In this document: piece by piece, positions 5,018-63,805 of the stretch
Layout of the letters: the number at the start of each line of letters is the position of its first letter
How positions within the stretch are numbered: position 1 is the stretch's first letter
NCBI GenBank assembly: GCA_025356275.1
Contig: JANXUK010000134.1
Location: 1 to 64,000 of the forward strand
DNA from: Sphingomonadales bacterium
GTDB lineage: Bacteria > Pseudomonadota > Alphaproteobacteria > Sphingomonadales > Sphingomonadaceae
DNA length: 64,000 nucleotides
Direction of reading: 5' to 3'
Notes under the pieces: generated by a model
What the model was told of the DNA's origin: nothing
Databases searched by the model: none
The model's input: the letters and a program-made list of their open reading frames with translations, nothing else
Position numbers and translations under genes: made by a program

Positions 5018-5188
5018 CTAGTGGTTCGTTTCCGACATTTGCATCGCTTTCGGCAAGGGCAGATGCAAATGTCGCAAAAACATAAGAACCACTAGATATT
5101 ATATTGTTTCTAGTGAATTTTATGATTTTTCCATTCGAAAGCACCCTTTGCCGCAAGCGGGACTTGAATGTCAAAATCAATCCACTAG
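5018..5188. repeat. Double-hairpin CTAG-bounded element, copy 1 (half-units 5018-5095 and 5110-5188)
   Basis: CTAGTGGTTCGTTTCCGACATTTGCAT...ATGCAAATGTCGCAAAAACATAAGAACCACTAG, then ATATTATATTGTTT, then CTAGTGAATTTTATGATTTTTCCATTCGA...TTGAATGTCAAAATCAATCCACTAG. Inverted near-copy at 28431-28609. Confidence 0.93.
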
Positions 5189-21624: not shown

Positions 21625-23033
21625 TTGGGAGATGATGCAATGACCGGTATGATGGCGCCCGGCGCCGATATGCCCAAACCGGGCGCCAAATCTGGCGGTA
21701 CCGCGCCGGCGCTGGTGCTGATCACCGCGCTGTTCTTCATCTGGGCCTTCGTGACCAATCTGATCGATCCGCTCGTGAAGAGCATGAAGGTGATCTACAC
21801 GCTCAGCGATTTTGAAACGCAGCTCAATCAGTTTGCGTTTTTCATCGCCTATGGCGTGATGTCGATCCCGGCGGCGGCGTATCTGGCGCGCAAGGGCTAT
21901 GCCCATTCGATCATTCTGGGGTTGCTCGGCGTGGTTGGCGGTTGCCTGATCGCCTGGTCGACCGGCCTGTCGCACAGCTTTGTCACGGTGCTGGCGGGTC
22001 TGTTCGTCGCGGCATCAGGGATCGCGCTGTTGCAGGTGGCGGCCAATCCGCTGATCGCCGCGATGGGGGAGGCCAGGAACACCCATTTCCGCCTCAACCT
22101 CAGCCAGGCGTTCAATTCGATGGGCGCCTATGCCGGCGGCATTTTCGGCGCGGCTTTCCTGCTAAAGGGCGATCTGTTCAAGAAGGATGCCGTGCTCACC
22201 CCTGCGCTGAAAGCCGGCGGTTTGTCATTCGTCACCCATGTCTACCTGGAGATCGCGGCGGCGCTGGCGCTGTTCGCGCTGGCGGTGTTTCTGGTGCGAC
22301 GCACGATTGCGGCCCATGCCCCGGTGATGGCGGCGCATGCCGAATCGCCGCTGTCGGCGCTGCGGTCGAAATGGGCCAAGCTCGGCGCGTTGGGCATTTT
22401 CCTGTATGTCGGGGCGGAGGTCTGCGTGATCTCCGGCATGATCTTCTTCCTGGAGCAGAAGCAGATCCTTGACATCCCGACGCAGGTGGCCGGCTTCGTC
22501 GGGCCGATCTTCATGCTGTTTGCCATGTTCGGCCGGTTCGGGGGCAGCTTGCTGCTGCGCCGCTTCAAGGCGACGACGATGCTGGCGCTGGTTGCGGCGG
22601 GGGCCTGTGTGCTGTGTCTGATCGTGATCGTAACGCATGGCATGGCGCCGACAGCATTGGGGGGTTCGATCACCCTGCCGGGCGGTTATCGCGCGCCGCT
22701 GACCTTGGGCTTTATCCCCGGCGTGGCGGCGATCCTGCTCGGGCTGATGAATTCGATCATGTTCCCGACGATCTTCACGATCACGCTGGAGCGGTCATCG
22801 GCGCCGGCTTCGGCGACATCGGGCTGATGTGCATGGCGATCTGCGGCGGCGGGTTCATCTCGATCCTGTATGGCGGGGTGATCGATCTGCTGACCACGCA
22901 ATTCCCGGTTGGAGCGCGGTCGGTGGCGTTTATCGTGCCGCTGGCGTGCTATGCCTATGTGCTGTGGTTCGCGCGCGCGGCCCGTTCGGCGGGGACGCAT
23001 GTAATCGAGGAGGACGTGGCGCCGGCGCATTAG
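21625..23033 (+). pseudogene. MFS sugar transporter (FHS/GluP-FucP-like), frameshifted near the C-terminus
   Basis: ALFFIWAFVTNLIDPLVKSMKVIYTLSDFETQLNQFAFFIAYGVMS... stops at 22827 (SATSG*). LMCMAICGGGFISILYGGVIDLLTTQFPVGARSVAFIVPLACYAYV continues in the next frame. Confidence 0.82.
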
Positions 23034-23159
23034 AGCATTGTGCCAAAAAGTGGGTGCCGGTTTTTGGCAATAAACGATGCGAAAACAAAGACTCTAGAGC
23101 ATCGTGCCAAAAAGTGGGTACCGGTTTTTGGCAATAAACGATGCGAAAACAAAGACTCT
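23032..23159. repeat. Two tandem 64-bp intergenic repeat units
   Basis: AGAGCAT(T/C)GTGCCAAAAAGTGGGT(G/A)CCGGTTTTTGGCAATAAACGATGCGAAAACAAAGACTCT at 23032 and 23096, period 64 bp. Confidence 0.95.
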
Positions 23160-27271: not shown

Positions 27272-28389
27272 GCGGCGCGGCAGGTGTTCGCAGCGGGCGT
27301 CACCAGCCAGCGCATCGCATTCTCCAGCAGCAGCGCGTAATGCGGTTCGGTATAGCCCTCGGGGCGGTGGCCGATCGCCGAATAGACCATCCGCCCGCGC
27401 CCGATGCAGCGGGTCCAGACGATCGGATGGTCGCCCATCCGCAAATCCTGCCCGCCCATGCCGACCTGATGGTAGGTGGCTTCATCCAGCGCCGCCAGAA
27501 CATGCGTGCCGGGCCCGCGCGGGCTGGCTTTGAATGAGTACCATTCGTCGGTCATCGTCCAGTCGGTCAGGCCTTTCGCGAGCGGGCTTTTCGGGTCCTC
27601 AATGGTGATGCGCGCGGCCTGGAACTGCGGTGCCATCGGGTGCCCCTTAAAGCGCGCGCCCAACAGGGTGTCGGCGTACCAGTCCCAGAAATAGGCAGGG
27701 TCGCCGCCGCTGCCATGCACCCCCAGAAAGCCGCCGCCGCGCGCCATATAGGCCTTGAATGCGGCGCGCTGCGAAAGGGTCAGGACGTCGCCGCTGATGT
27801 TGTTCCAGATCACCACATCGAAGCGCGCGAGGGTATCGGAGGTGAAAGCGCCGCCGCTCTGCGTGGTCACCAGCGTCCAACCGTTCTTCGCGGCGAGCCC
27901 TACAAAAGCGGCATGCGCGGCATCGACCGAGGGGCCGTCGCGGAAGCCATTGATCTTCTCGAACAGCAGGATGTGGCGCTTGCCGGCGGGCAGGTCAAAA
28001 TGCGGACGGTCATTGTCATAGCGGGCACAGCGGGCGCTGCGGTCGGCGGCGGTGATCGGCACAGCGTGCAAGGCGGCATCGGCTGGGATCAGCGCATCCC
28101 CCGCCTTGCCCATAAAGCCCGCGGCCTCGCGCAGCGACAGGATCGCCGCGAAGCTGGGCGGGTCGGTGCGCACAAAGATGGCGGGCATATGCGCGAAGGA
28201 TATGCCGAGCCGCGTCTCGGCCACCCCGCGCGCCGCCGGGCTGAGCAAAATATCGATTAGCGGCGCATTGACCGAGAAGGGGGCATCGCGCCCCGGGCAA
28301 TCGGTCACCGGATGTGCCGCAGCCGCACCGGCAGTGGCCGGCATCGCGCAGGCCGCCGCCGCGAGGATTATTGCCGTGAAGTAGCGCAT
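27268..28389 (-). CDS. Secreted ThuA domain-containing protein
   Basis: Signal peptide; RHILLFEKINGFRDGPSVDAA...FDVVIWNNISGDVLTLSQRAAFKAYMARGGGFLGVHGSGGDPAYFWDWYADTLLGARFKGHP. Confidence 0.88.
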   Translation of the reverse strand: MRYFTAIILAAAACAMPATAGAAAAHPVTDCPGRDAPFSVNAPLIDILLSPAARGVAETRLGISFAHMPAIFVRTDPPSFAAILSLREAAGFMGKAGDALIPADAALHAVPITAADRSARCARYDNDRPHFDLPAGKRHILLFEKINGFRDGPSVDAAHAAFVGLAAKNGWTLVTTQSGGAFTSDTLARFDVVIWNNISGDVLTLSQRAAFKAYMARGGGFLGVHGSGGDPAYFWDWYADTLLGARFKGHPMAPQFQAARITIEDPKSPLAKGLTDWTMTDEWYSFKASPRGPGTHVLAALDEATYHQVGMGGQDLRMGDHPIVWTRCIGRGRMVYSAIGHRPEGYTEPHYALLLENAMRWLVTPAANTCRAA

Positions 28390-28430
28390 GTCTCAACCCC
28401 TTTTGCCGCCGAGCAATTATTAACCTTGGC

Positions 28431-28609
28431 CTAGTGGATTGATTTTGACATTCGAGTCCCGCTCGCGGCAAGGGGTGCTTTCGAATATCAAAATCATAAA
28501 ATCCACTAGAAACAATATAATATCTAGTGGTTCTTATGTTTTCCGACATTTGCCTCTGCCCTTGGCGAAAGGGCCGAAAGGGATGCAAATGTCGGAAACG
28601 AACCACTAG
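28431..28609. repeat. Double-hairpin CTAG-bounded element, copy 2 (half-units 28431-28509 and 28524-28609), inverted relative to copy 1
   Basis: CTAGTGGATTGATTTTGACATTCGA...TCGAATATCAAAATCATAAAATCCACTAG-AAACAATATAATAT-CTAGTGGTTCTTATGTTTTCCGACATTTGC...GCAAATGTCGGAAACGAACCACTAG. Confidence 0.95.
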
Positions 28610-28857
28610 CGCGGAGGGAGGCAATTGCAACGGCGGCGCTTCGCCTTGCCGCTCCGCCGGGGCGATGATCCGCGAACGCCCCTCCACCATCGCGTTGCCT
28701 GCATTAGACGCGGCCCAACATGGCGGGAGCGATACGATGCGGGCCAGCGATCACGGCATGCAATGGGCGTAGCGTACCGAGCGGACGGTGAGCGCGGGTG
28801 CCACCGATCTGGCGATGCTCAGGCCATATTGGCGGGCTATTGAGGGGGAAACCAGCG

Positions 28858-47558: not shown

Positions 47559-47727
47559 CTAGTGGATTGATTTTGACATTTGCATCCCCCGGCGGTTGGG
47601 ATGGGTCTGCAAATGTCAAAATCGTAAAATCCACTAGAATCAGAATCTTCTAGTGGTCCGAAAAGATTCTGACATTCGAGCGCGACTTGGCCTCAACCGG
47701 TATCGAATGTCAGAATCGGACCACTAG
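47559..47727. repeat. Double-hairpin CTAG-bounded element, copy 3 (half-units 47559-47637 and 47650-47727)
   Basis: CTAGTGGATTGATTTTGACATTTGCA...TGCAAATGTCAAAATCGTAAAATCCACTAG-AATCAGAATCTT-CTAGTGGTCCGAAAAGATTCTGACATTCGA...TCGAATGTCAGAATCGGACCACTAG. Confidence 0.95.
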
Positions 47728-63557: not shown

Positions 63558-63596
63558 TGCAAGCCTGTTAGTTTGTTTGCCGCCTGCGGGCGGGGG

Positions 63597-63780
63597 AAGC
63601 CTGTGCCATCCCGAGTCGGTCTGATTGATCGCCTGCCGGCGATGAAGCCTGTGCCATCCCGCGCCCCCTCCCGACCTCCCATTCAGTGTGTATCCTGTGG
63701 GAGGTCGGGAGGGGGAGCGGGATGGCACAGGCTGCGACCGTCAGGTCGCCAATCAGACCGACTCGGGATGGCACAGGCTT
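63597..63780. repeat. Large nested inverted repeat (cruciform-forming)
   Basis: AAGCCTGTGCCATCCCGAGTCGGTCTGATT (63597) pairs with AATCAGACCGACTCGGGATGGCACAGGCTT (to 63780). Inner arm AAGCCTGTGCCATCCCGCGCCCCCTCCCGACCTCCCA pairs with TGGGAGGTCGGGAGGGGGAGCGGGATGGCACAGGCT, loop about 16 nt. Confidence 0.93.
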
Positions 63781-63805
63781 CATCACCGCAAGGCGATCAA
63801 TCAAA

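Follow-up and report, generated by a model that had tools for sequence, protein, structure and literature searches.

A dispersed two-hairpin repeat with IS630-like ends, probably mobilised in trans, in a Sphingomonadales genome and other Alphaproteobacteria

The 64,000-nt stretch of Sphingomonadales DNA analysed here (the window) contains a complete double-hairpin element at positions 28431–28609, which has no coding capacity, and two further copies of it. The features are:

28431–28609, + strand: complete double-hairpin element of the A1-B type, A hairpin on the left; termini C-TA-GTGG ... CCAC-TA-G, outer ends like IS630 termini
28431–28509, + strand: left (A1) hairpin, with the outer arm beginning at 28431 and the inner arm finishing at 28509
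28496–28499, + strand: bulge of the left hairpin, formed by the 4-nt insertion ATAA in its inner arm
28510–28523, + strand: 14-nt spacer AAACAATATAATAT joining both hairpins
28524–28609, + strand: right (B) hairpin, with a 9-nt loop duplication in common with the copy at C83:6465 (L078)
28534–28537, + strand: bulge of the right hairpin, formed by the 4-nt insertion TTAT in its inner arm
5018–5188, − strand: inverted copy (copy 1), A1-B type
47559–47727, + strand: third copy ("cousin"), A2-C type, with the 12-nt spacer AATCAGAATCTT and a differing right hairpin

As the original prediction had it, 28431–28609 is a near-identical inverted counterpart of 5018–5188 (94% over 112 nt and 95% over 40 nt, AAACAATATAATAT spacer included), with the 9-nt duplication in the right loop as the main difference. 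Each half indeed folds as a long hairpin, and the 4-nt insertions lie, as had been read from the letters, in the centre-facing arm of each. The whole 179-nt strand scored a folding z of −9.5 against dinucleotide shuffles, and the third copy −10.2 against shuffles. A 224-aa open frame at 28016–28690 (− strand) crosses the element and overlaps, in another frame, a ThuA-like gene; this open frame is apparently spurious rather than a gene of the element. Two other repeats lie in the window. At positions 23031–23158 a 64-bp unit, TAGAGCATTGTGCCAAAAAGTGGGTGCCGGTTTTTGGCAATAAACG..., occurs twice head to tail (97% identity) and itself contains an inverted repeat, and positions 63596–63803 hold an inverted-repeat cluster built on AAGCCTGTGCCATCCCG / GGGAGGTCGGGAGGG. 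Stretches similar to the latter occur in C54 (L079) and C58 (L080), so the cluster probably represents a second dispersed palindromic family.

The dispersed modular repeat inferred from the window reaches far beyond the three copies seen there. Across the source genome (3.18 Mb in 143 contigs), we counted 148 hairpins of the pattern CTAGTGG-N40-65-CCACTAG, each of which is palindromic and hence appears on both strands, and a covariance model returned 149 matches counting both strands, that is, about 100 places. Many contigs terminate within a copy, which indicates that the assembly breaks at the double-hairpin repeat. In 511 kb of source-genome sequence, all full copies show the arm order outer-inner-spacer (12 or 14 nt)-inner-outer. 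Four module combinations were found in the source genome, A1-B, A2-C, A2-B (L085:10678) and A1-C (L098:7011), and element length is mostly 157–179 nt there, with short forms of 112–123 nt in other genomes. The intergenic bias that had been anticipated was evident, nearly all of 29 copies lying between genes while 86% of the sequence was assigned to genes, as scored with a home-made gene caller that took copies as breaks, so that an intragenic copy can pass for intergenic. One copy (C142:67980–68150; L084:19480–19650) splits a Ser/Thr kinase-TPR reading frame, and joining its flanks with a single TA yields a continuous kinase-TPR frame. An orthologous empty site for the interrupted gene was not found, a protein search giving weak homologues only, none close enough as proof.

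The outer ends read C-TA-GTGGnnnGATTyTGACATTTG, with TA present at both ends of the element. C precedes this TA in 118 of 123 ends, against a background in which CTAG accounts for 2.0% of TA sites, and the joined flanks give C-TA-G in nearly every copy, with two exceptions. At two places (L083:1614–1949 and L076:1445–1684) a second element is seated in the terminal CTAG of the first, one CTAG being common to both. IS630 duplicates TA and prefers TA within CTAG (PMC2170065, which lists Tenzen and Ohtsubo 1991). The C outer end shares 22 of 27 bases with the IS630 ends of Roseiarcus fermentans (L171) and a Bradyrhizobiaceae MAG (L184), the best two, whereas source-genome CTAG sites outside masked copies have a mean identity of 0.32 to it; the few high background identities are plausibly unmasked solo copies. 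On the strength of these ends and this target, we regard the element as very probably a non-autonomous IS630 (Tc1/mariner-like) MITE, moved in trans and duplicating TA. The trans-acting transposase originally envisaged thus stands as probable, but as an IS630-type enzyme rather than a RAYT. A known IS-derived MITE, the outcome that the prediction had named against itself, describes the element in kind; no catalogue entry for the double-hairpin family was found in Rfam or in literature searches. GANTC, the CcrM methylation motif, is over-represented in the family (67 seen vs 19 expected), mostly in stems; many right hairpins have it in both stems and some IS630 ends contain it too, and its methylation might control transposition.

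A gene for such a mobiliser had not been seen in the window, and a candidate exists outside it. Searching the source genome for DDE_3 yielded six matches, one of which (C31) is an intact IS630 transposase of 359 aa (NF033545, E 3.9e-76; DDE_3 plus HTH) bounded by ends CTAGTGGATTGATTCCAACG and CTAGTGGATTGATCGAGACGG of the CTAGTGG... type. This IS630 resembles the element mainly over the first ~10 bp and at scattered core bases (0.67–0.74), and because the likeness is partial the true mobiliser may have been lost or be missing from the assembly. DDE_3 and IS630 searches of carrier genomes gave no match in several that hold copies, which would therefore be relics or be moved by something else. 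A wider scan for IS630 relatives retrieved 80 loci, and the termini, read for about 40 copies, were almost all C-TA-GTGG.... Elements of a second lineage (GTGTCCCGATTCCGAAGTTCGC) resemble a second IS630 group, at 21/22 bases (L315) and, within one genome, 18/22 (L287). An IS630 gene of G503 (47% identity to the first transposase) ends in CTAGTGTCCTGAACCGGAAGTTCGC; the IS630 of a Roseomonas plasmid has the end GTGTCCCGAATCCGAAGTTCGC, which agrees with a second-lineage element at 21 of 22 bases. From the end matches in both groups, the two element lineages each resemble one IS630 lineage. The element was found in 5 of 25 genomes chosen for related IS630 versus 19 of 386 sampled across the class (Fisher p 0.011), genome sets that were differently chosen and differently filtered in scoring; this enrichment is suggestive only. 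In both IS630 groups (L076:13719–14870 and L287:1342–2448), the transposase gene extends into the terminal repeat, with the TAG of the flanking CTAG serving as its stop codon. A distinct small element of ~100 bp, CTAGTGGTTTGAACGC...TCTAACCACTAG (L076:13622–13721), adjoins the intact IS630 with a CTAG in common and has the same end type.

Of 401 genomes from the bacterial family, 7 show the end pattern, and covariance model R1 scored 20 of 387 genomes sampled class-wide, belonging to 18 genera and 17 families, many of them with their own set of copies. Genome carriers include Agrobacterium vitis, Novosphingobium clariflavum, Sphingobium sp. YR768, Mesorhizobium hawassense and M. amorphae, and plasmid carriers include Ochrobactrum, Rhizobium, Martelella, Aminobacter, Sphingobium and Sphingomonas; a plasmid search with second-lineage elements found none. 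Many class-wide copies have almost no stem sequence in common with the window (for example, CTAGTGTsnnGGATTTGAAGTTCG / CTAGTGTCCnnnnCGATTCCGAAGTTCG) and nevertheless keep the plan: a pair of hairpins, a spacer of ~13 nt between them, and a small bulge lying ~10 bp away from the tip.

We therefore turn to the fold itself. The outer stems had been taken as conserved and the inner loops as variable; loops do vary, but so do stems between lineages, and they do so with compensating changes. In a set of 16 diverse copies, pairing holds for 97% of stem cells and 12 pairs changed on both sides, with 41 both-side-changed cells against 10.9 ± 2.8 in shuffled controls (0/500 shuffles), which bears out the covariation that the prediction called for. 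Alignment-free folding of one or two copies per genome returned two hairpins in 29 of 35 cases and, in the other six, one long hairpin with the outer arms paired together. A bulge of 2–5 nt, 6–13 bp from the tip, is present in 55 of the 58 stems of these 29 two-hairpin copies and lies on the inner, centre-facing arm in 55/55 bulged stems (outer, 0), a count over copies of common ancestry and hence not of independent events. In the source genome, stem changes were 27 one-arm versus 3 matched, so repair does not re-establish the match between arms at once. Furthermore, an element's two hairpins have different tip bases (ATT vs TCC), which match within each hairpin. Taken together, covariation, the predominance of recent one-arm changes and the tip pattern suggest that pairing itself, be it of DNA or of RNA, is kept beyond protein recognition.

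What such pairing would serve can be read in more than one way. Tentatively, the family could be a structure-selected transposable element that would need its pair of bulged hairpins, whether in DNA cruciform, single-stranded or RNA form, in order to propagate; arms, bulge side and spacer would be kept while the letters follow the IS630 lineage in use, and CIR and other alphaproteobacterial palindromic repeats would form one superfamily with it. It is also conceivable, albeit rather unlikely, that the hairpins are kept for a folded RNA or single-strand role (a terminator, an mRNA stabiliser or RNase III site, or a protein-binding structure) and that transposition merely spreads them. The stem covariation would fit such a role, as would arms that are not corrected at once yet match between lineages and a bulge and spacer kept across about 17 families, and shared transposase recognition alone does not predict tips that match within a hairpin; however, the element has no Rfam match, neighbouring gene pairs of copies reveal no strong terminator-like bias (tandem/convergent/divergent, 13/9/6), copies sit at CTAG whatever the gene context, and the patchy presence in the class-wide sample speaks against a host function. 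Template switching is known to occur on long quasi-palindromes, and palindrome-templated repair or gene conversion, not selection, might have matched the arms. We deem this improbable, since bulges should then be erased too, yet they persist, always on inner arms, and recent source-genome mutations are mostly uncorrected. Finally, the REP/BIME-like repeat moved by a RAYT (Y1) transposase that had been proposed by analogy hardly survives: the palindromes are dispersed and paired and the source genome does contain Y1 genes, but the ~79–86 nt hairpins are tipped with CTAG and differ from 20–40 nt GTAG/CGTC-tagged REP palindromes, ends and target are those of IS630, and the Y1 genes, none of which flanks an intact copy as partner, include an IS200/IS605 element landing on the repeat's TTGAT.

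This IS200/IS605-type (Y1) element directly adjoins CTAGTGGATTGAT in two contexts, L081:301–320 (C78) and L082:300–319 (C24), and appears to have inserted into repeat copies with TTGAT of the outer end as landing site. Three other candidates were set aside: an IS630 shortened simply by internal deletion, which is not supported, as the IS ends that were read lack a matching subterminal hairpin; integron attC-like sites (no GTT core; termini CTAG); and phage-borne spread (a phage search gave no match to the element).

For the preferred reading, a non-autonomous IS630 MITE, we propose the following model. An IS630-family DDE transposase would recognise both outer ends (tip GTGGnnn and core GATTyTGACATTTG), excise the element and reinsert it at TA, preferably in CTAG, with duplication of TA. 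Each element carries four transposon-end copies, two outer ones intact and two inner ones inversely read, and each outer/inner pair of ends forms one hairpin. In the inner copies, the ~4-nt insertion lies between the tip, near the cleavage site, and the putative binding core, so that inner ends are likely unused and movement would occur as a two-hairpin unit. Hairpin modules would also recombine (A1-B, A2-C, A2-B, A1-C), and deletion between direct core repeats would generate single outer+outer hairpins. Stand-alone hairpins made of two outer-type arms without the insertion occur in the source genome, G113, G095 and G078 (C6:29277, C19:17307, L048, L052, L065–L067 and L070) and look like such deletions. 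By inspection, no stand-alone outer+inner hairpin was found, this combination being confined to full elements and contig ends. It is the presence of outer+outer hairpins without stand-alone outer+inner ones that led us to propose that the inner ends may be inactivated by the 4-nt insertion.

What is unusual is the architecture, a two-hairpin plan kept with almost wholly diverged stem sequences in about 17 families: a mobile element whose fold, 4-nt bulge side included, outlives its sequence. It also raises the question of how one transposase picks the outer pair among four similar ends. Among known systems, REP/BIME-RAYT repeats are likewise dispersed palindromes, often paired, but their tagged units and Y1 transposase do not apply to the double-hairpin element. 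RUP of Streptococcus pneumoniae, an IS630-Spn1-associated MITE (PMC2229807), has IS630-like ends at TA and about 100 copies per genome, although it is 107 bp long and its description there lacks a two-arm-plus-linker plan. PMC2573895 and PMC2267715 name RIME, Sm-repeats and A/B/C motifs of rhizobia and Bru-RS1/2 of Brucella, which are likewise interspersed, palindromic and alphaproteobacterial. The closest described relative is CIR (CcrM-associated intergenic repeats) of Caulobacter and Brucella (Chen and Shapiro 2003, per the review PMC2229807), with two arms and a linker, GANTC, ~110 bp and a mobility left open there. Both families are alphaproteobacterial and intergenic, with two long inverted-repeat arms joined by a linker and with GANTC sites, enriched here, and the 112–123 nt short forms match CIR in size. 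In contrast, CIR carries GANTC in one arm, at its terminal loop, whereas the elements described here are mostly 160–179 nt, with GANTC mainly in stems (one short form, L259, carries GACTC in the loop), and have IS630 ends and CTAG targets. These ends and targets offer a mobility mechanism for alphaproteobacterial two-arm-plus-linker repeats, whose movement had not been accounted for.
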